Shown here: positions 1-16,467 of the stretch, piece after piece
Layout: each line of letters starts with the position of its first letter
Numbering within the stretch: position 1 is the first letter of the stretch
From: Candidatus Zixiibacteriota bacterium
GTDB lineage: Bacteria > Zixibacteria > MSB-5A5 > SM23-73-2
Length of the DNA: 16,467 nucleotides
Direction of reading: 5' to 3'
Assembly: GCA_030615745.1 (NCBI GenBank)
Contig: JAUWYR010000050.1
Span: forward strand, 1-16,467
Translations under genes and position numbers: made by a program
Notes under the pieces: generated by a model
The model's input: only the letters and a program-made list of their open reading frames with translations
What the model was told of the DNA's origin: nothing
Database searches by the model: none

Positions 1-183
1 GATGATCACTATCTTCTTAACCTTATTGAACTTATTAACTTTTATTCAGAGAAGGTAAATTCGGCTAGCTAGATCATTCCCTCTTTTATCTTTGCTGTTC
101 CAATAGACTTCTTTATTTTCGGCTGTTTGTGTTTCATCGGGTGATGTCTTAACTTTCTGACCAAGAAGATGATAGATAGTTAC
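1..183 (-). pseudogene. Remnant of a T9SS type-A C-terminal sorting domain
   Basis: Reading the minus strand from 183 down gives a frame opening with VTIYHLLGQKVKT, then YWNSKDKRGNDLASRIYLL, a TGA stop at 46-48, and then in the same frame IKVNKFNKVKKIVII up to the window edge. This matches, in order, the hallmarks of type IX secretion type-A sorting domains: the IYNLLGQKVKTL strand, the YWDGKDDKGN turn, the ASGIYFYRIK strand and a KKMVLIK-like end. The frame is closed upstream by a TGA at 184-186, right at the end of the neighbouring kinase gene, so the body of the cargo protein is gone. The Gly of ASGIY is Arg and the stop falls just after it, so this is a decayed fragment and not a functional gene. 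The motif match is seen directly; the family assignment is from memory of CTD consensus sequences. Confidence 0.75.
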
Positions 184-1877
184 TCAGATTGAGCAGGATG
201 GCAAGGCAACTTAATCATAAAGTTGGTTCCTTGTCCAATCTCGCTTTTCACTTCTATTTTTCCTCCATGATTTTGAACGATTTTATGGCAGGCTAACAAA
301 CCTAATCCATGACCATTTTCTTTTGTGGTAAATCTTGTTTTGAATGCTTCTCTTAACTCCTCTTCAGACATACCCTTTCCTGAGTCGATGATACATATTT
401 CGAAAAGATTTTCCTCTTTATTATATGTTGTCTCTATATTTATGTTCCCATGTCTTTTGCCGAGGCAGTTGATAGCATCGACTGCATTATTCAAAAGATT
501 ATATAATAATTGCTGTATCTGATTTGAATCTAGGTGAATTGGAGGAGCGCCCCTGTCTAACTCCTTTCGAAAGGTGATATCTTGAAATCTTTTTTGCGGC
601 TTTAAGAAGGAAATGACTTTTTCTATGATATCATTTATGTCAGATTGTGCCTTCTCTCCTTTTATTGACCGGAAGTCCATAAGACTTTCTACGAACGTTT
701 CAGCTTTTACTAAATGTTCTTCAATAGCTTTAAGGCACTTATTAATTTTGGCTTTATCATCCCTTTCCATGTGCACTGGTAGCAACTGAAAATTGCCCTT
801 AATGATCATCAGGAAGTTATTTAGGTCATGACCAATTTGAGCTGACCTATGAGCTTCGATAGCACCTTTTTCCAATGCTACTATCTGGTCTTGTAGCTCC
901 TGGAGCTTTAAATAAGATTCGTGAGCTTTCTGGAATAGACGTAAGTTTTCAAGGGATATCGCCGTCTGAGTAGCAACGATAGTAAGTAGCTTTATTGTAG
1001 TAGCATCCGGAGGCTTTTCTTCAGGTCTTTGATTTAAGTTCAATAATCCAACAAGCTTTCCACCCTTTTCTATAGGAATAGAAATGACATGATCATCTCT
1101 TGGAAAGATATCATTGAACAAAGAGGGTTCTATGGTTAGATTGCTAAAAGATTCAAATATCGGATACTGGGAAATATCTCCTTTTTTTACAGATTTCGAC
1201 ATTTTAGACCAGGTATCAATAATATGTTTTGATACTTTTAATTTATCTTCTTTAAACTCTCCGCCTCTTAAGTCTTTGCTAACATATATTTCTAACTCCT
1301 CTGTGGGTTGATCCCAGATGAAGATAGACCCCTTGGTCAATTTGCAGTGTGACAGGGCAAGTCCAAGCAAAAGCTTAAGCAGACCTTTCCGATCAGCTGT
1401 TGAAGATAGAAATTTATTGAGTTCATATAACCAAGCCAAATCTCCAGTTTTCACTCTGCCCAGTTGCTCTTTTCTTTTATCCAAGGCTTTAGCTACGGCG
1501 CCTTTCACTTCTTCCAAGTCAAAGGGCTTCAATATATAATCGTAGGCGCCTTCTTTGACCGCCTCTTTTGCAGTTTCCACACTAGCGTATCCTGTCATGA
1601 ATAATGCACCCAGATCCGGACATAATTGATGAGCTCTTTTAACCAACTCTATGCCATCCATCTCTGGCATCTTTATGTCAGCAACTACCAAATCAAATTC
1701 ATCTTCTTGAATCCTTTTTAAAGCTTCTTTGGACTTTAAAAACGAAGATATTTGGTATCCTTCATCCTGAAGAACCTTGCTGACCAACTTCAACATAACT
1801 TCCTCGTCATCCACCACCACAATTTTTGGAGCATTCTGTGGTCTTTTTTCATCTGACTCCAACTTTTTCTCTACCAT
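180..1877 (-). CDS. Soluble REC-GAF-histidine kinase (hybrid sensor kinase)
   Basis: A cytoplasmic 565-residue signalling protein without membrane segments or signal peptide. Residues about 18-133 are a receiver domain with acidic pocket D23/D24, phospho-acceptor D67, T95 and K117. Residues about 160-312 look like a GAF domain. A coiled linker follows, then the phosphorylation helix with GHDLNN (H350) and a catalytic ATPase domain with N-box N463/N464, G1 box DSGKG (498-502) and GHGLGL (522-527). The receiver at the N-terminus suggests it is fed by an upstream kinase and then drives its own histidine phosphotransfer. The ATG at 1875-1877 is the only usable start, because an in-frame TGA lies 15 nt upstream; a GAGGG ribosome site precedes it. 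The gene overlaps the preceding response regulator by 29 nt and is the last gene of the operon. Its ligand is unknown. Confidence 0.93.
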   Translation of the reverse strand: MVEKKLESDEKRPQNAPKIVVVDDEEVMLKLVSKVLQDEGYQISSFLKSKEALKRIQEDEFDLVVADIKMPEMDGIELVKRAHQLCPDLGALFMTGYASVETAKEAVKEGAYDYILKPFDLEEVKGAVAKALDKRKEQLGRVKTGDLAWLYELNKFLSSTADRKGLLKLLLGLALSHCKLTKGSIFIWDQPTEELEIYVSKDLRGGEFKEDKLKVSKHIIDTWSKMSKSVKKGDISQYPIFESFSNLTIEPSLFNDIFPRDDHVISIPIEKGGKLVGLLNLNQRPEEKPPDATTIKLLTIVATQTAISLENLRLFQKAHESYLKLQELQDQIVALEKGAIEAHRSAQIGHDLNNFLMIIKGNFQLLPVHMERDDKAKINKCLKAIEEHLVKAETFVESLMDFRSIKGEKAQSDINDIIEKVISFLKPQKRFQDITFRKELDRGAPPIHLDSNQIQQLLYNLLNNAVDAINCLGKRHGNINIETTYNKEENLFEICIIDSGKGMSEEELREAFKTRFTTKENGHGLGLLACHKIVQNHGGKIEVKSEIGQGTNFMIKLPCHPAQSE

Positions 1878-2232
1878 AGACTCCCTCTTTCACTCCTTTA
1901 ATAATTTCTTTGATTTCATCCAAGTCGAAAGGTTTGTGAACGCAGGTAATAGCTCCCTTCTCTTTGGCTAATTCGCTCAAGGAATCAGGATAACTATCCA
2001 TCATCACAATGGTTACTTTTTGATCAAATTTTCTTATTAAAGTCACCACCTCCAGTCCGGTCATCTCCGGCATATGAACATCCGAGAAAATGATGTCAAA
2101 AGAGGTCTTCTTCGCCATCCGGACAGCTTCATATCCATTATCAACCACAGTCACTTGGTGTCCCCAATCATTTAGCACTTCGCTCAAAAGACGTCGGATG
2201 ATATACTCATCATCTACAACAAGGATCTTCAT
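1849..2232 (-). CDS. Single-domain response regulator (CheY-like) with Thr-to-Asp switch substitution
   Basis: A 127-residue stand-alone receiver. The acidic pocket D7/D8, phospho-acceptor D51 and the conserved K100 followed by PF are all present. The beta4 switch position, normally Thr or Ser in an MTGY-like stretch, reads VMMDSYPD, so Asp79 replaces the Thr. That residue normally contacts the phosphoryl group, so signalling output may be altered. There is no effector domain, so it probably acts as a phosphorelay intermediate or through protein contacts. The ATG at 2230-2232 has only a purine-rich leader and no strong Shine-Dalgarno; no other start is in frame before a stop. The 3' end overlaps the following REC-GAF-kinase gene by 29 nt, which suggests coupled translation and a direct partnership. 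Confidence 0.93.
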   Translation of the reverse strand: MKILVVDDEYIIRRLLSEVLNDWGHQVTVVDNGYEAVRMAKKTSFDIIFSDVHMPEMTGLEVVTLIRKFDQKVTIVMMDSYPDSLSELAKEKGAITCVHKPFDLDEIKEIIKGVKEGVYGREKVGVR

Positions 2233-2303
2233 TTTTCTGTATCTTTTTTTCTTTTAAAACAGATGCTTCATTTTTCCAAAGTTAAGACACCATTCTGATA
2301 TGC

Positions 2304-2681
2304 TCAAACAGGCTTTTTGGATTTCAAAGCACGTCCAACTAATAGCTTGATTTGATTAATCTGAAACGGTTTTACTATATAACCTGCGGCACCAAAGTTT
2401 TTACACTCAGCCTCTGTGTCCAAAGAAGGATAACCAGTGATGATGATTACTTCTGTATTAGAATTTTTTCGCTTCACTTTTTTGAGCACCTCTATTCCGT
2501 CAGCGTTAGGCATTTTTATGTCAGTAATGACTAAATCATAATTCGATCTTTTTATCTTATCTAAGGCTTCTTTTCCGTCTGTGGCTAAATCGGTTTCATA
2601 GCCCTGGTCAGAGAGAAAATCCCTTAGAAACTCTCTTATGACCTTTTCATCATCTACTACCAGAATTCGATAGTTTTCCAT
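2304..2681 (-). CDS. Single-domain response regulator (CheY-like)
   Basis: A 125-residue receiver domain with all canonical residues: D10/D11, phospho-acceptor D54, T82 and K104 followed by PF. It has no DNA-binding or enzymatic output domain and ends shortly after helix alpha5 with a basic tail. It lies 41 nt downstream of the HAMP histidine kinase gene and is the likely first phospho-acceptor of that kinase. The ATG at 2679-2681 has no good Shine-Dalgarno, and there is no alternative start codon between it and the end of the kinase gene. A 71-nt gap separates it from the next receiver gene; no terminator hairpin is apparent there, so read-through into the downstream genes is likely. Its substitution pattern differs from the neighbouring receiver, which has an unusual switch residue. 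Confidence 0.93.
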   Translation of the reverse strand: MENYRILVVDDEKVIREFLRDFLSDQGYETDLATDGKEALDKIKRSNYDLVITDIKMPNADGIEVLKKVKRKNSNTEVIIITGYPSLDTEAECKNFGAAGYIVKPFQINQIKLLVGRALKSKKPV

Positions 2682-2722
2682 CTTTAAAAGAGTATTTCGG
2701 GTTTTTATTAAACTACTCCTAC

Positions 2723-4405
2723 CTATATATTACTTTTCTCGGCAAAAGACTCTGCTTCTTTTTCCGATTGAACTCTCTCTAAAACTTCGACCCCGGGTAG
2801 AAAAATAATAAATGTAGTTCCTTTTCCAACCTCGCTTTTAACCTTTATTTCTCCTTTATGTTCCTTAATTATACCATAGCTTACTGAAAGACCCAAACCG
2901 GTCCCTTGACCAACTTTTTTCGTTGTAAAGAAAGGCTCAAAAATCTTATCAAGATTTTCACTTGGTATTCCAAAGCCGGTGTCAGTAAAAGATACCTCTA
3001 CTCCTTTTTTTCGTTCTCCGAAATAGCTGGTTACTCTTGTCGAAACAGTCAAATCACCCCCTTGAGGCATAACCTGTAAGGCATTAAGAATTATGTTAGT
3101 GAAAACTTGTTGTAGCATTCCTGCGTTTCCATTCACTTTTGGTAGGGATGGCTCTAAGTTCTTTAACAACCTAACCTTGCTCATAGATAGTTGATGTTGA
3201 ACAAACATTAAGGTATCGTCTAAAATAGCATTCAGGTTTAAAACTTCAAAGTCAACTTTTGTAGATGATCTTGAAAACTTCAAAAGATTCTGCACAATTT
3301 TTTTACACCTTATTGATTGCTGTTCAATGTCTTTCAGATATGCGGAATAAGTGGAGATCTCTTCATCGGTTAAATCCTGTGCTTTTTTATTCCTCATCTT
3401 TGAATAAGTATATTGAGCAAAACCCAGAATGCCTCCTAAAGGGTTATTCAATTCATGAGCAACCCCTGCGGCCAGTTGACCCGCAGCAGCCATTTTTTCT
3501 GTCTGAATCAGCTTGGCTTGTGCCTCCTTTAACTCCCTAGTCCTTTCCTCTACCTTCTGTTCTAAGGTTCTGCTGTAGTTTTCAATTTCCCCCCTGGACT
3601 CTTTTAAAGAGACGGTCATCTGGTTGAAGGCAAAAGCTAATTTCCCCAGCTCATCCTTGCGGTTTATCTCCACCGAAAGAGAGAGGTCTCCACAAGCGAT
3701 TCTTCCTGTGGCATAAACCAGTTTCTCCACCGGCTTAATGATCAGATTCACCAGTCCGAAAGTTAGTAGTATGGCTATACCTACGATCAGACAGGTCAGA
3801 AGGACTATGATGTTTTTCATCCGGGCAATTTGTTCTCTCATGGGATGCAAGGATATCCCAACTTTTGCCACCCCTATTTTTTCCTGATGCAGTAGCAGGT
3901 TCAAATCCTTACCAATGATGATCCCTAGCTCCTCTTTGGGCATCTGGACTTTGGTGGTCATTATAGGGTAAGTTAACTCGTAAAGGTCAGACTTATCATC
4001 AAGGGTGACCTGGGACTGACCCTGCGAACCTTTTTCGTTTAGGTCATTTGGGATTACACTTTCATCTATTTTTTTCTTTTTTTGATAGTGTTTTTTCTGA
4101 ACTAACTGGGCCAAAAGTCTATCATTCTTATCGTAAATTTCAGCATACATCACATCTTCTTCTCTAAGCACCCCTTTGATCAAATTAGCTAAAAGCTGTT
4201 GGTTTTCAATCAACACCCCATATTCGCTATTGTAAGCTAAATTTTTAGCTAAGGATTTCACCCTTTTCTCCAACTCCCTTTCGATCAATTGGCTTTGTTC
4301 TTTAATCAAAAATCCGCTTAAAATTACCGAGGTGAAAAGGATGAGAAATGAAATCATCAACACAAACTTAATTTTAAGTCCTAATTGAATTTTGGGGAGT
4401 TTCAT
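2723..4405 (-). CDS. Membrane-bound HAMP sensor histidine kinase
   Basis: A 560-residue inner-membrane kinase. A first membrane helix spans about residues 13-34. A periplasmic sensor region of about 160 residues follows (35-196), then a second helix (about 197-223), a HAMP domain (to about 275), a coiled coil, a HisKA helix with AHELNNP (H317), and a HATPase domain with N-box N437/N441, G1 DTGFG (475-479), F-box FEPFFTTK and G2 GQGTGLGL. The sensor region resembles PDC/CHASE-like extracytoplasmic domains in its opening (LAKNLAYNSEYGVL) but cannot be assigned firmly. It contains a lysine-rich, probably exposed segment around residues 104-114. The start codon overlaps the stop of the upstream binding-protein gene as ATGA, so the two are translationally coupled and the kinase probably senses the state of that protein. 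Confidence 0.95.
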   Translation of the reverse strand: MKLPKIQLGLKIKFVLMISFLILFTSVILSGFLIKEQSQLIERELEKRVKSLAKNLAYNSEYGVLIENQQLLANLIKGVLREEDVMYAEIYDKNDRLLAQLVQKKHYQKKKKIDESVIPNDLNEKGSQGQSQVTLDDKSDLYELTYPIMTTKVQMPKEELGIIIGKDLNLLLHQEKIGVAKVGISLHPMREQIARMKNIIVLLTCLIVGIAILLTFGLVNLIIKPVEKLVYATGRIACGDLSLSVEINRKDELGKLAFAFNQMTVSLKESRGEIENYSRTLEQKVEERTRELKEAQAKLIQTEKMAAAGQLAAGVAHELNNPLGGILGFAQYTYSKMRNKKAQDLTDEEISTYSAYLKDIEQQSIRCKKIVQNLLKFSRSSTKVDFEVLNLNAILDDTLMFVQHQLSMSKVRLLKNLEPSLPKVNGNAGMLQQVFTNIILNALQVMPQGGDLTVSTRVTSYFGERKKGVEVSFTDTGFGIPSENLDKIFEPFFTTKKVGQGTGLGLSVSYGIIKEHKGEIKVKSEVGKGTTFIIFLPGVEVLERVQSEKEAESFAEKSNI

Positions 4406-5355
4406 CTGAAAATCTCCTTGGCTATACTAATTAAATCGGATGAAATCTCTAAATCTATATGTTCTGATGTTTTTAAATTCAAGTATAAATAGATTATCCT
4501 GGGCACTAAGACAGGAATGAGTTTAGGATCTTTGCCCAAAAGTATCTCCAATGCTACCTCCCCGGATTGTCTACCTATATCTTTATAATCACAAGCCAGA
4601 GTAAAAAGAGCTCCGTTCTCTACAAAAGAGGGATTAACCCCCATCACCGGGAGACGATTTCTCAAGGCGTATAGAAGAATGAATTGAGTGGTTTGAGGGG
4701 TGTAAATATTTGGGTCTGCTATGGCCCACAATCCTTGAGTTTTTTTTTGCAACTGTTCTAAAGCCTCGGGCACCTCTCTCTCCGAGAAAACCAAAAAAGG
4801 GACTATCTCTAAGTTTAGGTTCTCTGCTACGACTTTCGCTTCCTTTATTAATTCTTCAGTTTCTGAAGTATGAAGCGCCCCGATTTTTCTCAGATTGGGA
4901 ACAACTAATTTAAACTTTTCAAGCTGTATTCTAATGGGGATGTCCAAGGATGCTCCGGTAAGGTTGTTTCCCGAAGATTGCATGCTTTTCACGAAACCGC
5001 TTATAACCGGGTTCAGGACTACAGAGAAAACTAAGGGCGTGTCTTTGATTTTTTTGGAAACGATTCCTGTTGCCTTAGAGCCAATGGTTATGATTAAATC
5101 CGGTTTTTCAAGCACCAATTTCTCCAGAGAACGTTTTCTCTCCTCAGGCTCGTCTGGTATTATGTATTCGGTTACCCTGATATCTAGATCGCTATCCTCA
5201 AGCACAGTCTTAATTCCTTTAAGAGCTCTTTTGTATGAAGCAAACTCCTCACACTTAGCTATAACAACTTTCTTCTGGCTGGCAAAAGAAAAAGAAAAAG
5301 CCAAAAAGAAAATGATGATAAAAAGTCCTTTTATCAACCCTATTTGCTTAATCAA
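4402..5355 (-). CDS. Periplasmic ABC-type substrate-binding protein (COG2984-like), TTG start
   Basis: A 317-residue exported binding protein. A hydrophobic signal peptide covers residues 1 to about 25, with likely cleavage after SFSFA; there is no lipobox Cys. The mature part shows two alternating alpha/beta lobes, with segments such as KPDLIITIGSKAT and TPLVFSVVLNPV that are typical of the ABC substrate-binding family related to TrpX/COG2984. The start codon is TTG (minus strand, 5353-5355): a GAGGG site lies 9 nt upstream and a TGA closes the frame just beyond, leaving no alternative. No permease or ATPase gene is present in the window, and the gene overlaps a sensor kinase by 4 nt. Its role is therefore inferred to be a periplasmic sensing partner and not a transport component. 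The ligand is unknown; aromatic amino acids are one possibility within the family. Confidence 0.88.
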   Translation of the reverse strand: MIKQIGLIKGLFIIIFFLAFSFSFASQKKVVIAKCEEFASYKRALKGIKTVLEDSDLDIRVTEYIIPDEPEERKRSLEKLVLEKPDLIITIGSKATGIVSKKIKDTPLVFSVVLNPVISGFVKSMQSSGNNLTGASLDIPIRIQLEKFKLVVPNLRKIGALHTSETEELIKEAKVVAENLNLEIVPFLVFSEREVPEALEQLQKKTQGLWAIADPNIYTPQTTQFILLYALRNRLPVMGVNPSFVENGALFTLACDYKDIGRQSGEVALEILLGKDPKLIPVLVPRIIYLYLNLKTSEHIDLEISSDLISIAKEIFR

Positions 5356-8431: not shown

Positions 8432-11101
8432 ATGCGGAAAGAAAGATTTTTCAAAAAAGTGGTTTTCACTTTGGTGATTTTGATTCTCCTTTTAATCACA
8501 ACTAACAACACCAATGCAAAACTAACGAAATTTATGGATCCACCCACCCCGATGCAGGATCAGATTATCCATAACAAGGGGAATATCGCCACTAGTATCC
8601 AGAACTGGGGTCAGATCGGAGGTCAAAGCCATTTGGGCATACCTTCTGGAGAGTGGCCCAAGGGGTCTGAACATAATTACTTGGCTGAGATCAAATATTG
8701 GATGGGCGCAATCACATCTTCTGGAGACACTGTTGTGGCAAATTCCGAGGATGATTTCATGCCTATTTCTATCCCCTTAGCTGGAGAACAATCTTATAAA
8801 ATACGCCTCTCTACAGATCCTGAAACCTATAATTATGACCCTTCCGACACTGTAGGCTTGGGTGTTGGCAAACCAGCCTACGGCTGGAGCATATGGGATA
8901 GCCAGACTGAGAGCTGGGTTTATAATAGAGTTTGGAATTCACAAGAAAGCCTTTATGTCGAGGCTGGTCCTGTCTCTCTTCAGGAGAGTCACTACCGCTT
9001 TAACGATGCTAACAGCGGAATCAGCATTCTGGGATTGGAACTAACCCAGACAATCTATCAGTGGAATTACAGTTATAATGAAGATTTTCTTTTTGTGGTA
9101 TTAGAGATTAAAAACAAAAGTTCTTTTGGTTACCAAGATTTCGCCTTTGGACTTTATTGTGACTTCGATGTGGGAGGACTTAATCCTCAGGGTGGTAATG
9201 GTCGCTTAGGAGACTTGGTGGCTTTTGATTCGAGTATGAACTTAGCCTGGACCTATGATGAGGATGGATATGACCCTGGCTGGGGTCCTCTGGTTAAATG
9301 CGGGATGATGGGCACCAAGTATATTGAGACCCCGGATAATATTGGAATGACAGCCTTTAGGACCGGTCAATGGGAACATCTACCGCAAACCGATGGGGGA
9401 AAGTATGAATTCATAAACAGCCAGCAGTTCGACCAAAGTCTTCCGCCTACAGATCAATACTATATTCAGTGTACCCGAAGGATCAATTTAGAAGCGGGAA
9501 AGACTATTAGAGTGGTTTTTGCCTTAGTTGCCGGTCAGGATGAAGCTGAACTTAAAGCTAATGCTTCAATGGCTCAAATGGTGTATGATAATCATTTCAT
9601 TGGGCCAGAGCCACCAAAACCTGCTAAGTTGGTCGCTACACCTGGTTACGCTTTAGCAAAGCTTTCCTGGGATAACTCATCAGAGAACTCCGTTGATCCT
9701 TTGTCCGGGAAAAAAGACTTTAAAGGATATAAGATTTACCGGAGCACCGATATGGGGTTAACTTGGGGTGATCTGGTAAAAAATCCAGATGGAAGTTTAG
9801 GACCAGACTATGTTCCTGTAGCTATTTTTCAGAAAGAAAATGAGGGTGATATTTTGCCCCATACTTATATTGACAAAGACCTTACTAATGGAATGGAATA
9901 TTGGTACTCAGTGGTCTCTTATGACTCAGGCGATTCGACCGTTCCTATCCAGGCTTTGCAAACAGCTTATGGTAGGCCCGGCGAGGATCCGAATTGTGCC
10001 TTTGCTATACCTCGAACTGACCCGGCTGGTTTTTACCCTGCAGAAAAAACGGTTAAGCACAATTATTACGGCTCCGAGGAAAAAAGCGATGGAAAGGTGA
10101 TCCCGATTACTTTTGACCCCTTCGCTTTGACCGGTCATGAGTATAAGGTGGTTTTTTCAGAGGATCCATTGCAGACTTTTTGGCATGTAGTTGATATTCA
10201 AACCAATGACACAGTCTTGAAAAATCAAACCAGACAGGAAGGAGACACAGAAAGTTATCCGGTGGTGGATGGGATTCAGGTAATAGTAACCAACGGCTTG
10301 AGAGAGCCTGATTACTATCATCAAACCGGCCTTGCCACCGCTTTAGATACCACCTTGCATATGGGATATTTCTATGGAGCGATGGGGGAGACCTTCGGTA
10401 TTCCCACTGGTGGAGATATACATTTCCGATCAACCTATGAGATCAGATTTACCCAGAATGGTTCTGTGGGCTATAGTTTCTATGATGATGTTACTCCGAT
10501 ACAACTACCTTTTGAGGTATGGAACATCTCTTTAGGCTATCAGGTTATCGCGGAGATATATGATTGGGGGAACGACGGGGTGTGGAATCCTGAAAACAAA
10601 GACTATATTGATATTGTAAATATTCCCTATGATGGGAATCCTCATCCTGAGGCTTTCCCTTATCATCACTCTTGGTTTTTCAGATTTGGGATCTCAGACA
10701 CCAATTACGCGGTAGGAGATGTTTACAAAATAGGTGGGGCTAAACTTAATACTCCAGAAGATGAATTTGTTTTCAGTGCTTCCGGGATAGATTTCCATCA
10801 GGCTGAAAGTGAACTGTCCGAGATCAAAGTGGTTCCCAATCCCTATATAGCTCATGCTCAATGGGAAAACACCGAAGGGATCAGAAAGATTCAATTCACC
10901 CATCTACCCGATGTTTGTAAGATCCGCATTTATACCTTAGCTGGTGATCTGATACAAACTATAGATCACAACAACGACACCGGCACCGAGGAGTGGGATA
11001 TGTTGACGGTAAATCAGCAAGGTGTCGCACCAGGTATTTATTATTATCACATAGAATCGAAATATGGAGAAAAATTAGGTAAATTTGTGGTTATAAAGTG
11101 A
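8432..11101 (+). CDS. Large exported protein with fibronectin III-like domain and T9SS type-A-like sorting domain
   Basis: An 889-residue secreted or surface protein. The N-terminal signal peptide covers about residues 1-29 (basic start, long hydrophobic core, ending NTNA). The first 390 residues form an unrecognised beta-rich region. Residues about 396-500 look like a fibronectin type III domain (AKLSWDNS, FKGYKIYRS, GMEYWYSVVSYD). The last 96 residues are a CTD: EIKVVPNPY, FTHLPDVCKIRIYTLAGDL, VAPGIYYYHIES and a terminal KFVVIK. This layout is standard for type IX-like secretion cargo in FCB-group bacteria. The ATG at 8432 has AAGGAGG that overlaps the TAA of the receptor gene. Its position between a TonB receptor and a PorV-like gene suggests a surface partner of the receptor. 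No catalytic motif is visible, so a binding or structural role is inferred. Confidence 0.88.
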   Translation: MRKERFFKKVVFTLVILILLLITTNNTNAKLTKFMDPPTPMQDQIIHNKGNIATSIQNWGQIGGQSHLGIPSGEWPKGSEHNYLAEIKYWMGAITSSGDTVVANSEDDFMPISIPLAGEQSYKIRLSTDPETYNYDPSDTVGLGVGKPAYGWSIWDSQTESWVYNRVWNSQESLYVEAGPVSLQESHYRFNDANSGISILGLELTQTIYQWNYSYNEDFLFVVLEIKNKSSFGYQDFAFGLYCDFDVGGLNPQGGNGRLGDLVAFDSSMNLAWTYDEDGYDPGWGPLVKCGMMGTKYIETPDNIGMTAFRTGQWEHLPQTDGGKYEFINSQQFDQSLPPTDQYYIQCTRRINLEAGKTIRVVFALVAGQDEAELKANASMAQMVYDNHFIGPEPPKPAKLVATPGYALAKLSWDNSSENSVDPLSGKKDFKGYKIYRSTDMGLTWGDLVKNPDGSLGPDYVPVAIFQKENEGDILPHTYIDKDLTNGMEYWYSVVSYDSGDSTVPIQALQTAYGRPGEDPNCAFAIPRTDPAGFYPAEKTVKHNYYGSEEKSDGKVIPITFDPFALTGHEYKVVFSEDPLQTFWHVVDIQTNDTVLKNQTRQEGDTESYPVVDGIQVIVTNGLREPDYYHQTGLATALDTTLHMGYFYGAMGETFGIPTGGDIHFRSTYEIRFTQNGSVGYSFYDDVTPIQLPFEVWNISLGYQVIAEIYDWGNDGVWNPENKDYIDIVNIPYDGNPHPEAFPYHHSWFFRFGISDTNYAVGDVYKIGGAKLNTPEDEFVFSASGIDFHQAESELSEIKVVPNPYIAHAQWENTEGIRKIQFTHLPDVCKIRIYTLAGDLIQTIDHNNDTGTEEWDMLTVNQQGVAPGIYYYHIESKYGEKLGKFVVIK

Positions 11102-12948: not shown

Positions 12949-13310
12949 TCATACTTCTTTTGCTCTTGAGGTGTAAAAATTTTTGACACCATGTGAGTTA
13001 ATCTGGAAAAGTCTTGAGTATTTTCAAAAACGTTAATTCGGATCTGTCAAAAAACTGTTTCGATTTTGTTTCAATTCGACTTGTATTTTCTTAGGTTTTT
13101 ATGGGTTATGATGGATCATCTAAATAGTCCCTAACTTATTGTCTATCTTTCTAATAACAAGCAGTTCAACAAATTAAAAGACCCCCCCTTAATTGTAAAG
13201 TCTAAATTAAAAATCAAGTAAAAATTGCGAAAAGAAGCTCCACTGCTAAAGAAGAAAATAGTAGAATTATCCTCAAAATCGCCTTTGGTAAATCTAATAA
13301 TTAGATATAC

Positions 13311-13361
13311 AAAAGGATTCCTTAATTCCCTTTGAAAGGGGTATCGGGTGGACTACCCCCC
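13311..13361 (+). repeat. Imperfect direct repeat, copy A, hairpin-forming
   Basis: Begins AAAAGGATTCCTTAATTCCC and ends GGTGGACTACCCCC. It matches copy B at 13500-13550 at roughly 80% without gaps. A GGGGTA/TACCCC stem (13338-13343 with 13354-13359) and the near-perfect palindrome CCCTTTGAAAGGG (13328-13340) lie within it. Confidence 0.65.
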
Positions 13362-13387
13362 CCGTCTCTATCCAACCACCTCTCTCC

Positions 13388-13400
13388 AAAAGGATTCCTT
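13388..13400 (+). repeat. Short partial copy of the same repeat
   Basis: AAAAGGATTCCTT is identical to the first 13 nt of copy A, but the match does not continue into the rest of the unit. Confidence 0.5.
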
Positions 13401-13499
13401 ATAGCTAATGCCACCCAAATTAGGGACAGGGGTTGACCTCTGTAACCTACTTTAAACTCTCATTAAGTTACTTTGACTAAACTGTGGATTATACTGACG

Positions 13500-13550
13500 A
13501 AGGGATTCCTTAATTTCACTTGATAAGGGTAGGCGGTGGACTACTCCCCC
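13500..13550 (+). repeat. Imperfect direct repeat, copy B
   Basis: AAGGGATTCCTTAATTTCAC at the start and GGTGGACTACTCCCCC at the end align with copy A. The GGGTAG...CTAC stem is retained with one bulge, while the inner CCCTTTGAAAGGG palindrome of copy A is not. Confidence 0.65.
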
Positions 13551-13642: not shown

Positions 13643-14239
13643 CTACCCCCAGCTTAGTGCTATAAAATATCCGATTTTTAAAAAATCACTCCTTTTTTTA
13701 TTTTCTAAAAAAGACAGACAATTTTTACAAAAGTTTATTGATTTGAAATCGATCTCCTCCGCATAGGTGGAGGTATACATAACGCACTCTGGTTTTTGAC
13801 AATGTATCAAACCAAAGGTGTGCCCTAATTCGTGAACTGCTTCCTTTTGTAAACGCTCTTTTAACCTTTGAGGGTTTTCTGGCAATCCATACAATTCATC
13901 TCTTAATCTGTGGGTGGAAACTAAAGCTGCTTTCCCCTCTAATTGTGCCTCGCCAAAAACATAGGTTAAAACAGGGACATATAAATCCACTGTGGTTACT
14001 GCTAAAACTTTACAAGACTTTTCAGGAATTTTTTTTAAAATCTGTGACAGGATCCAAGTTGAGTTGTATTGATTGCGGATAAAATCTTTTCCCCCATCCA
14101 GAGGGAACGGTTTGTTCAAAAAGCTTACCGGGAGTTTGAAAATCGTTTTAAGAACAGATAAAAGTTCAGTTAAAAGTTTATAATCTGAAAAACTGAGTGG
14201 AAGTATGTATATGTGTAGTTCTTTTTGTGTAGTGTGCAC
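13643..14239 (-). CDS. amzA: Archaemetzincin-type zinc metalloprotease, GTG start
   Basis: A 198-residue protein, without signal peptide, of the archaemetzincin family (peptidase family M54). The zinc site HELGHTFGLIHC is at residues 136-147 (ligands H136, H140, H146; catalytic E137), followed by C152, M154 and a CKNC pair (C171, C174). The four cysteines form the family's second, structural zinc site. The N-terminal half also fits the family: an ILPL strand near the start and RNQYNS (55-60). The start is GTG (14237-14239), 2 nt after the stop of the sigma-54 activator gene. No correctly spaced ribosome site exists and the frame is closed upstream, so translation probably depends on re-initiation. 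The substrate is unknown. The last codons (SWG then stop) lie beside sequence resembling the end of the nearby repeat unit, so the extreme C-terminus may be altered. Confidence 0.93.
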   Translation of the reverse strand: MHTTQKELHIYILPLSFSDYKLLTELLSVLKTIFKLPVSFLNKPFPLDGGKDFIRNQYNSTWILSQILKKIPEKSCKVLAVTTVDLYVPVLTYVFGEAQLEGKAALVSTHRLRDELYGLPENPQRLKERLQKEAVHELGHTFGLIHCQKPECVMYTSTYAEEIDFKSINFCKNCLSFLENKKRSDFLKIGYFIALSWG

Positions 14240-14241
14240 CT

Positions 14242-15597
14242 TTATTTTCGCAAACCATATTTTTCAATTTTATTATAAAGTGTGGTTCTATCGATTTTCA
14301 AACTCTCAGCTGCGCGGGTTATATTCCATCCCATCTCCTCCAGGATGCTTTGGATATGCGCTTTCTCAACAGCTTCCAGGCTTTTGTCCTCAGGAGAAAT
14401 CTTAGGAAAACTTGGAATTGGAAGGTCTGAGACTGTAATGTAGTTTCCCTTTCCAACCACGATTGCTCTTTCAATAGCGTTTCTAAGCTCACGCACATTT
14501 CCAGGCCAATCATATTTTTTTAGAAGTTCCATAGCTTCAGAGGTGAATCCTTTAATCGGCTTATTCATCGAGGCTGACAGTCTTTTTAAAAAATAATCTG
14601 TTAGAAGAGGAATATCTGTGCTTCTTTCTCTTAAAGGAGCGATGAAAACGGAGAAGACATTTAACCGGTAATACAGATCTTCTCTGAAACTTCTCTCTTT
14701 GACCGCAAGTTCTAAATCTTGGTTAGTAGCGCATATAAGCCTGAAGTCAACTTTAATGACCTCATTCCCGCCAACTCTGGTAAACTGCTTGGTTTCAATA
14801 ACTCGAAGAAGGTCCATCTGAGTTTTAGCACCGATGTTGCCCACCTCATCTAAAAAGATAGTCCCTCCATCAGCCATCTCAAATTTCCCTTTTCGCCGAT
14901 ACAATGCTCCGGTGAAGGCTCCTTTCTCATGCCCGAAAAACTCAGATTCCAGAAGTCCTTCACTCAAGCCACCGCAGTTGATGGTGATTATAGGATGATA
15001 TCGCCTCGAACTGTTGGAATGAATAGCTCTTGCTATAAGCTCTTTCCCTGTTCCGCTTTCACCTCTGATCATCACTGTGGTATCAGTTGGTGCTACAGCT
15101 TTGATTAGCTCAAAGACCTTTAAAATTGCAGGACTCTCACCTACGATCTGGTCCACTTCGTAAAGCTCCTGAATCCTTTCCTTTAACTGGATGTTTTCAG
15201 ATAAGATACGCCTCTGAACAGTGATCTTGTTCAATAGATGACTGAGGTAATCGGGATCAACAGGCTTGGTCACATAATCGTAGGCGCCTTCCTTGAGCGA
15301 CTTGACCGCGGTCTCAACAGAGGCGTATGCTGTGATCATAATGATCACTATGTTCGGTTCAATGCTTTTGATTCTCTGTTGAAGCTCCATTCCATCCATA
15401 CCTGGTAGCTTGATATCCAAAAAGACTACGTCCCATCTTTTTTTCTGGAACTTCTTCAAAGCATCTTTTGCATCGCAAGCTGAATCAGCTTTGTACCCAT
15501 CTTCCACAAACCACTTGGTCAAAGAGTCCCTGACGCTTAGCTCATCGTCAACAACTAAGATACTCAATGGTTTTTCAGCTTTTTTCAAATTGTTCAT
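14242..15597 (-). CDS. NtrC-family sigma-54-dependent response regulator
   Basis: A 451-residue transcription activator. The receiver domain (residues about 12-125) carries D17/D18, phospho-acceptor D61, T89 and K111. The AAA+ domain (about 148-385) has Walker A GESGTGKE (179-186), the sigma-54-contacting GAFTGA loop (226-231), Walker B FLDE (248-251) and the arginine-finger region REDLYYRLNVF. A Fis-type helix-turn-helix closes the protein (about 405-450, NITRAAESLKIDRTTLYNKI). All functional residues are intact, so it should activate sigma-54 promoters when phosphorylated. The ATG at 15597 is preceded by AAAGGG. It sits 32 nt after the kinase gene, its probable cognate partner, and 2 nt before the archaemetzincin gene. 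Its targets are unknown; I found no convincing -24/-12 promoter in this window. Confidence 0.97.
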   Translation of the reverse strand: MNNLKKAEKPLSILVVDDELSVRDSLTKWFVEDGYKADSACDAKDALKKFQKKRWDVVFLDIKLPGMDGMELQQRIKSIEPNIVIIMITAYASVETAVKSLKEGAYDYVTKPVDPDYLSHLLNKITVQRRILSENIQLKERIQELYEVDQIVGESPAILKVFELIKAVAPTDTTVMIRGESGTGKELIARAIHSNSSRRYHPIITINCGGLSEGLLESEFFGHEKGAFTGALYRRKGKFEMADGGTIFLDEVGNIGAKTQMDLLRVIETKQFTRVGGNEVIKVDFRLICATNQDLELAVKERSFREDLYYRLNVFSVFIAPLRERSTDIPLLTDYFLKRLSASMNKPIKGFTSEAMELLKKYDWPGNVRELRNAIERAIVVGKGNYITVSDLPIPSFPKISPEDKSLEAVEKAHIQSILEEMGWNITRAAESLKIDRTTLYNKIEKYGLRK

Positions 15598-15629
15598 TTT
15601 TTACCCTTTTTTTAAATCATTTTGAGGTT

Positions 15630-16467
15630 CTAAAAAGGAGTTATGTTCATCACTAAGTCACGATAAAGCTTTATTATAAATGTTGAGCCCTCACCCACCT
15701 TGGATTTCACATCGACCTCACCCCTATGAGCTTCTAAGATTCCATACACCACTGATAGACCCAACCCAACCCCTTTCCCCTCTTTTTTTGTAGTGAAGAA
15801 TGGCTCGAAGATATGAGGAATATCTTCTTTGAGAATACCTATTCCTGTATCTTGAAATTCAACTAAAACAGTCATTTCGTCCGTGTTATCTTTTGTCTTA
15901 ATAGTCAAAGTGCCTCCATTGGGCATAGCCTCAACTGCGTTCATCAAAATAGCTAAAAAAGCTTGTTGAATCTGGTTTTTATCGCACATAATCTCTGGAT
16001 TTTTGCTCTGGTAAGATTTGACCAATTGTATATTATTCAAATCCAGATGATGTTCCACCAACTGCGTACAGCGATCTAAGATCTCATGCAGGTCTACCAC
16101 CGCAAATTCTTCTATCTCCCTTTTGGAGAAAAGCAAAAGGTTTTTCACTACGTTTCCACAACGCATAGTTTCCTCAGTAACTATGGAGAGGTCCTCTTGA
16201 ATTGACAGGAGTTTCTCTTTGGTCAAATTTTTAGAGTTTAACTTCTTTTGCACAAGCTTAGAATAGGTTAAAATCCCCTCCAAAGGGTTGTTCAGCTCAT
16301 GCACAACAGTTGCGGAAAGCTTTCCCAAAGAAGCCATCTTTTCCACCTGAATCAAGTGACCTTGAATACGCTTTAACTCCTCTGTTTTCTCATCAACTCT
16401 TTTTTGTAAAGTCTCTGACCACTGGGTGATCTCCTCCTGTGCTTTTTTCAACTCTTTAGTCATAGTA
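15630..16467 (-). CDS. Sensor histidine kinase, N-terminus outside the window
   Basis: The visible 278 residues begin in a coiled-coil linker of the kind that follows HAMP domains (MTKELKKAQEEITQW, then VDEKTEELKRIQ). A HisKA helix with VHELNNP follows (H55 counted from the ATG at 16461-16463), then an ATPase domain with N-box N175, G1 DTGIG (205-209), F-box FEPFFTTK and G2 GKGVGLGL. The ATG at 16463 is probably internal: the codon before it is open (CTA, Leu) and a HAMP linker normally has an upstream HAMP and membrane sensor part, which must lie beyond the right edge. It is the first visible gene of the operon with the sigma-54 activator and the archaemetzincin, and is the likely phosphodonor of the activator. 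Its sensor domain cannot be judged here. Confidence 0.93.
   Translation of the reverse strand, partial: TMTKELKKAQEEITQWSETLQKRVDEKTEELKRIQGHLIQVEKMASLGKLSATVVHELNNPLEGILTYSKLVQKKLNSKNLTKEKLLSIQEDLSIVTEETMRCGNVVKNLLLFSKREIEEFAVVDLHEILDRCTQLVEHHLDLNNIQLVKSYQSKNPEIMCDKNQIQQAFLAILMNAVEAMPNGGTLTIKTKDNTDEMTVLVEFQDTGIGILKEDIPHIFEPFFTTKKEGKGVGLGLSVVYGILEAHRGEVDVKSKVGEGSTFIIKLYRDLVMNITPF

Follow-up and report, generated by a model that had tools for sequence, protein, structure and literature searches.

Gene neighborhoods and phylogenies indicate that a predicted zinc protease, archaemetzincin (AMZ), and an NtrC-type sigma-54 activator are co-inherited as a pair across many bacterial phyla. In a Zixibacteria metagenome-assembled genome (MAG), the pair lies at the end of a 16,467-nucleotide stretch of DNA, hereafter the window. 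Joined to a second contig, the window appears to hold the distal end of one operon, with AMZ as the last gene of a respiratory-complex operon. Archaemetzincins span archaea, bacteria, and mammals. The literature consulted assigns catalytically intact members neither a pathway nor a natural substrate, and the linkage to NtrC and to Hmc-like genes provides a concrete, testable bacterial context for this little-understood family.

The kinase, activator, and archaemetzincin genes

Three genes run head to tail on the minus strand of the window. They encode the C-terminal 278 amino acids of a histidine kinase with HisKA and HATPase_c domains (positions 15630 to 16466), a 451-amino-acid NtrC-type sigma-54 activator with a receiver, an AAA+ domain carrying GAFTGA, and a Fis HTH (14242 to 15597), and a 198-amino-acid AMZ (Peptidase_M54) with a GTG start and intact HExxHxxGxxHC and Cys4 sites (13643 to 14239). 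All three assignments made in the sequence-only reading were borne out by Pfam matches above the cut-offs, and the GAFTGA is present as noted there; the kinase, however, is only partial in the window, its N terminus being cut by the contig end. The activator matches Sigma54_activat at 229 bits, has the receiver Asp, Walker A and B motifs, GAFTGA, and Fis-type HTH of NtrC-type proteins, and falls inside the AMZ-adjacent clade of the NtrC tree.

AMZ scores 77.8 bits against Pfam Peptidase_M54 (cut-off, 24.4) and 159.7 bits against the NCBIfam archmetzin model (cut-off, 145). Its active site, HELGHTFGLIHC, has the HEXXHXXGXXHC signature of M54, and alignment gives a four-Cys pattern of C-X4-C-X-M-X16-C-X2-C, with X16 from the Met to the third Cys in place of the X17 of the published archaemetzincin fingerprint. 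The residues of the second zinc site and Met-turn (C147, C152, M154, C171, and C174) are invariant across 15 aligned sequences. The AlphaFold2 model (pLDDT, 89.6) has an M54 fold, with the archaemetzincins 3lmc, 2x7m, and 3zvs as its top PDB matches and TM-scores of 0.74 to 0.76 by query length and 0.78 to 0.92 by target length against AmzA of Archaeoglobus, Methanopyrus, and Methanocorpusculum (MEROPS M54). AMZ shares the catalytic and Cys4 zinc motifs with AmzA, which is archaeal and has no assigned pathway in the literature consulted, whereas the window protein belongs to a bacterial clade located next to a single NtrC lineage. Archaeal AfAmzA was inactive on many substrates tried (PMC3427221). 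The genome has not one but four M54 genes, AMZ of the window among them.

As originally read, AMZ starts 2 nt past the activator stop, at a TAA-AG-GTG junction (14237 to 14244, minus strand). The GTG is the only plausible start, and no AGGAGG-like or Shine-Dalgarno-like site was found nearby upstream of it. An identical GTG and 2-nt spacing occur in nine more loci (L036, L037, L040, L042, L044, L046, L047, L049, and L052), and the orthologues with this conserved junction, drawn from three families of the order, are only 61 to 74% identical. Given the missing Shine-Dalgarno site in the window and the recurrence of the GTG and 2-nt spacing in these nine loci, translational coupling of AMZ to NtrC is likely. 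The junction described earlier is thus real, but the term “obligate co-translation” overstates what it suggests.

Linkage of M54 genes to one NtrC lineage

M54 neighborhoods were taken from 59 genomes, including that of the window. A profile of NtrC-linked M54 genes was also run on named genomes, and the best 80 of 518 relatives were kept; this set, having been retrieved by similarity to the window's AMZ, is biased toward that protein. Extra M54 copies came from an evenly drawn 118-genome phylum sample selected independently of similarity. Most surveyed loci are from MAGs, whose taxon labels can be wrong.

In a set partly chosen by similarity, 96 of 160 M54 genes adjoin NtrC, 61 do not, and 3 are undecidable. 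The HExxHx5H motif is kept in 96/96 NtrC-adjacent proteins and lost in 51 of the 61 nonadjacent ones (intact in 10/61), and on these counts the catalytic integrity of bacterial M54 proteins largely tracks NtrC linkage. Intact M54 genes with a readable neighborhood adjoin a sigma-54 activator in 96/106 cases (the set again being partly chosen by similarity). The window genome encodes only about 12 such activators, and with so large a share of intact genes adjoining one, the adjacency is beyond chance. Among the best 80 of 518 relatives in the named-genome scan, NtrC lies ≤350 bp upstream in 75 loci, with a spacing of −60 to +10 nt in 54 of those 75. In the 118-genome phylum sample, NtrC precedes 9/9 extra intact M54 genes examined and 0/5 degenerate ones.

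On each tree the linkage forms a single split and requires one change, with support of 92 for M54 and 99 for NtrC. Linked loci span deep divergence and more than ten phylum labels as given in the named-genome scan (Zixibacteria, Gemmatimonadota, Ignavibacteriae, Bacteroidetes, Kryptonia, KSB1, Planctomycetota, Acidobacteria, Deltaproteobacteria, Latescibacterota, Wallbacteria, and Stahlbacteria). Four loci (L161, L170, L183, and L102) have the reversed order AMZ-NtrC with direct adjacency retained, which makes passive conservation less likely. Since ten intact M54 genes lack linkage to NtrC, two of them (L001 and L002) in the window genome, the linkage belongs to one clade and not to all bacterial M54 proteins.

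The sequence-only reading had placed the protease in the pathway of the kinase and activator, had called for a gene-neighborhood survey, and had named unrelated neighbors in all relatives as the result that would count against it. That result is ruled out by the recurrence of NtrC beside M54 in relatives, and a role in the pathway is strongly supported by the single split on both trees, the range of phylum labels, and an adjacency that outlasts changes in gene order. A comparison of lineage-specific residues among AMZ-adjacent NtrC proteins yielded scattered positions and no obvious cleavage motif. Separately, L106 and L166 both derive from CP070758.1, titled Gemmatimonadota, whose AMZ shares 70% identity with the AMZ of the Zixibacteria window and which has a second triad at L166; either a recent transfer or a mislabeled MAG would explain this likeness.

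The Hmc-like cassette, its sensor kinase, and sigma-54 sites

The last 141 bp of the window (16327 to 16467, unstranded) are identical to the opening 141 bp of contig C35; within the genome, a 120-nt probe taken from the overlap matches solely these two contig ends. From there C35 encodes the N-terminal part of the kinase, an HmcC-like protein, HmcB, a 382-amino-acid protein that contains CxxCH 13 times, and a GcvH-like protein. Our first impression that the triad is separate from this cassette in the window's order was overturned by the unique overlap; none of the end overlaps among the remaining cassette and triad contigs joined a cassette to a triad. The kinase frame is shifted near the first helix on C35, which points to an imperfection in either the assembly or the gene. 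The joined contigs indicate an operon order of GcvH-like membrane protein, 13-CxxCH cytochrome c, HmcB-like Fe-S protein, HmcC/NrfD, kinase, NtrC, and AMZ.

HmcB (L189:2537-3466) scores 423.9 bits, above the curated cut-off of 420. The HmcC-like NrfD protein of the window genome reaches 457 bits against a cut-off of 550, and its CxxCH-rich cytochrome matches HmcA weakly (51.8 versus 400); we therefore describe the cassette as Hmc-like and do not file it as Hmc. HmcB-, HmcC-, and, weakly, HmcA-like proteins are common to the window cassette and the Hmc of sulfate reducers (HmcA, HmcB, HmcC, and HmcD), but the former adds GcvH-like subunits, the kinase, NtrC, and the archaemetzincin, and its cytochrome has 13 CxxCH motifs compared with the 16 hemes of HmcA (NCBIfam description).

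Neighbor clustering recovered a recurrent order of membrane-anchored GcvH-like protein, HmcB-like Fe-S protein, HmcC-like NrfD protein, Cys-rich GcvH-like protein, kinase, NtrC, and AMZ. The Cys-rich GcvH-like protein carries the motif CxWxxAGxxxYKLC..CxxCPFD, the membrane-anchored GcvH-like proteins lack the lipoyl-Lys motif (alignment A3), and the gcvH score of 44.6 falls below the equivalog cut-off of 115.85. Where more than 7 kb of upstream sequence was available (n = 52), a GcvH-like gene was found in 46 loci and an HmcB/C-like gene in 40, making GcvH-like proteins at least as regular a neighbor of AMZ as Hmc genes. Over the 59 genomes, the HmcD-GcvH gene is associated with linked AMZ (10/4/1/44; Fisher P = 1.6e-7, uncorrected for phylogeny). 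The components also occur apart: GcvH-like genes flank AMZ although HmcB/C are absent (L200 and L202), HK-NtrC-GcvH-Hmc cassettes exist without AMZ (L190, L191, and L198), and some AMZ-NtrC pairs have no Hmc nearby (L108, L111, L130, L136, and L151). In the open-access literature, we found no paper joining GcvH, NrfD, and a histidine kinase and no description of the system.

The extracytoplasmic domain contains CxxCH in 61/64 full-length linked kinases, and both CxxCH and CX4CHxH are invariant in ten aligned kinases; the continuation of the window kinase on C35 (L189) has CQVCH and CYGSGCHLH. Based on these motifs, the natural reading is that the kinase is a putative c-type heme redox sensor. 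A sequence search of the sensor against the PDB returned no significant relative, and for a related kinase (L190) the Pfam MCP sensor match was subthreshold (20.1 versus a cut-off of 27). The best NCBIfam matches of the window pair were the NtrC-family pairs AtoSC and ZraSR, with which it has a common domain architecture. It scores below their equivalog cut-offs, however, and differs in its sensor with CxxCH and CX4CHxH and in the co-inherited protease gene.

Sigma-54-type −24/−12 sites were counted at ≥10/11 matches, with expectations taken from shuffles. Such sites were found upstream of 6/55 cassettes (0.1 expected), 5/70 kinases (0.2 expected), and 2/344 other genes (1.0 expected). Perfect consensus sites number only eight in the window genome, which encodes RpoN (sigma-54); one site, TGGCACATCTATTGCT, lies ∼57 bp before the second Hmc/GcvH cassette of this genome (L190). 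The first gene of that cassette (L190:6647-7519, G000:C1) encodes a receiver fused to a GcvH-like domain; a receiver-GcvH-like fusion also occurs in an Hmc-type operon at L163:1921-3105. A strict sigma-54 scan of the window gave no site, and the site upstream of the window operon, TGGTATCCTCTTTGTA, is a poor match that has lost the GC at −12; the equivalent site of a sister species is TGGTATCATCTTTGCA.

Possible roles of the archaemetzincin

We slightly favor a model in which a redox-responsive kinase and NtrC drive sigma-54-dependent expression of the Hmc-like complex, with AMZ as the dedicated cytosolic protease of the module. Judging from the protein families, the kinase would sense periplasmic redox or electron-carrier state via the domain with c-type heme motifs and phosphorylate NtrC, which in turn would activate the sigma-54 promoters of the redox complex and of its own operon. 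AMZ, presumably produced together with NtrC by translational coupling, would then act as a cytosolic zinc protease that resets or quality-controls the module by cutting one cognate protein, most likely NtrC or a GcvH-like subunit; this is the least certain step. The Cys4 zinc site could render AMZ redox sensitive. NtrC is a candidate substrate because AMZ is co-inherited with a single lineage of it and the two are probably coupled in translation, and the GcvH-like protein is a candidate given its presence beside AMZ in the loci without HmcB/C (L200 and L202) and the HmcD-GcvH co-occurrence. More tentatively, AMZ may be the dedicated effector of a widespread signaling-respiration module, in which the heme-motif kinase and NtrC would govern a membrane redox complex of the Hmc/GcvH type and the co-translated zinc protease would reset this switch through cleavage of the activator or of a GcvH-like signaling subunit. 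If true, M54 would gain its first assigned role in regulatory proteolysis, as far as the literature searched shows, and sigma-54 activators would have a new kind of off switch. With AMZ tied to a single NtrC lineage and one named kind of redox complex, only a few proteins, all open to expression and testing, are left as candidate substrates.

Loci with decayed activators bear on the choice of substrate. Genus g2 has no kinase beside AMZ, and GAFTGA of its NtrC is replaced by GALAEA (L044:3125-4540 and L047:2121-3473), although this NtrC remains constrained (dN/dS, 0.12). We had considered this genus unlinked but rejected that view, as the NtrC genes of L044 and L047 adjoin AMZ at 2 nt. They possibly encode a sigma-54-independent NtrC. 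The AMZ genes of g2 have dN/dS values of 0.05 to 0.17, indicating purifying selection after NtrC lost GAFTGA. Also in g2, an NtrC remnant with stops lies beside NiFe-hydrogenase-type genes at L037:713-1030. In G002, NtrC is a pseudogene (a remnant with stops), a loss that may be recent, and AMZ is intact (dN/dS, 0.05 versus L044). Since AMZ stays intact where NtrC has decayed, it is not merely accessory for clearing active NtrC; the constraint on g2 AMZ, together with the regularity of GcvH-like genes, cautions against activator proteolysis as the whole story.

The same persistence of AMZ in g2 would fit a protease that matures or quality-controls the Hmc-like complex, for example by trimming a GcvH-like or Fe-S subunit, and that sits near the regulator through shared operon regulation only. 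Hmc/GcvH genes occur near most loci with enough flank, and GcvH-like genes remain by AMZ in the two loci without HmcB/C. Nevertheless, the three Hmc/GcvH cassettes without AMZ, the five AMZ-NtrC pairs without Hmc nearby, and the fact that the tightest association of AMZ is with one NtrC lineage make this explanation doubtful, though worth keeping in view. Far less credible is passive operon conservation, that is, a single capture of AMZ behind NtrC with no functional tie. One capture would fit the single split on both trees, and many loci are vertically inherited within phyla. Against this, the pair has remained adjacent over deep divergence and more than ten phylum labels and in the four loci ordered HK-AMZ-NtrC or AMZ-NtrC, and every linked gene retains the catalytic ligands, which most unlinked ones have lost.

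A nonproteolytic role has a precedent in CarG of Myxococcus xanthus, an M54 protein with an E-to-Q change that acts as a binding partner of CarD in ECF-sigma transcription and is required by every CarD-dependent process. The sequence-only reading had stated that archaemetzincins have no well-established bacterial function, which needs correcting because CarG serves transcription without proteolysis. Both CarG and the window's AMZ are bacterial M54 proteins tied to a transcription regulator, but CarG has lost the catalytic Glu and partners CarD, whereas AMZ keeps all ligands and adjoins a sigma-54 activator. Against NCBIfam NF033824, which covers nonproteolytic archaemetzincin-like proteins such as CarG, AMZ scores 89.9 bits (cut-off, 250) and has an intact HE, which sets it apart from the CarG type. 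We think it improbable that AMZ, like CarG with CarD, is a zinc-stabilized binding partner of NtrC or the kinase. The near-universal degenerate M54 paralogue in the same phylum adds to the CarG precedent, but binding alone is not expected to preserve all catalytic ligands, as they are in every NtrC-adjacent M54 protein while most nonadjacent ones have lost them. The open-access literature contained no paper joining an archaemetzincin with sigma-54 or with two-component systems.

Several observations are peripheral to the proposed protease role of AMZ. Nearly every genome of the class has a single-copy M54 paralogue with a degenerate catalytic motif, ranging from HQLGHLLGLKHC to complete loss, and a mostly retained Cys4 site (e.g., L056:3931-4500 on C18 of the window's own genome, L035, L045, L048, L057, and L060 to L062). 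By sequence, it seems to be a non-myxobacterial relative of CarG; in 2015, orthologues of CarG outside the myxobacteria were called unknown (PMC4374960). An 889-amino-acid protein (window positions 8432 to 11101), flanked by a TonB-dependent receptor on one side and a PorV-like protein on the other, had zero matches in Pfam. At 180 to 5355, the window has a second signaling run of overlapping or tightly spaced genes for an ABC-type substrate-binding protein, a HAMP kinase, two lone receivers, and a receiver-kinase hybrid. The noncoding region downstream of AMZ (13283 to 13550) contains a direct repeat of 80 bp, imperfect at 71%, along with a CAAAAGGATTCCTTA-like 15-mer that occurs three times.
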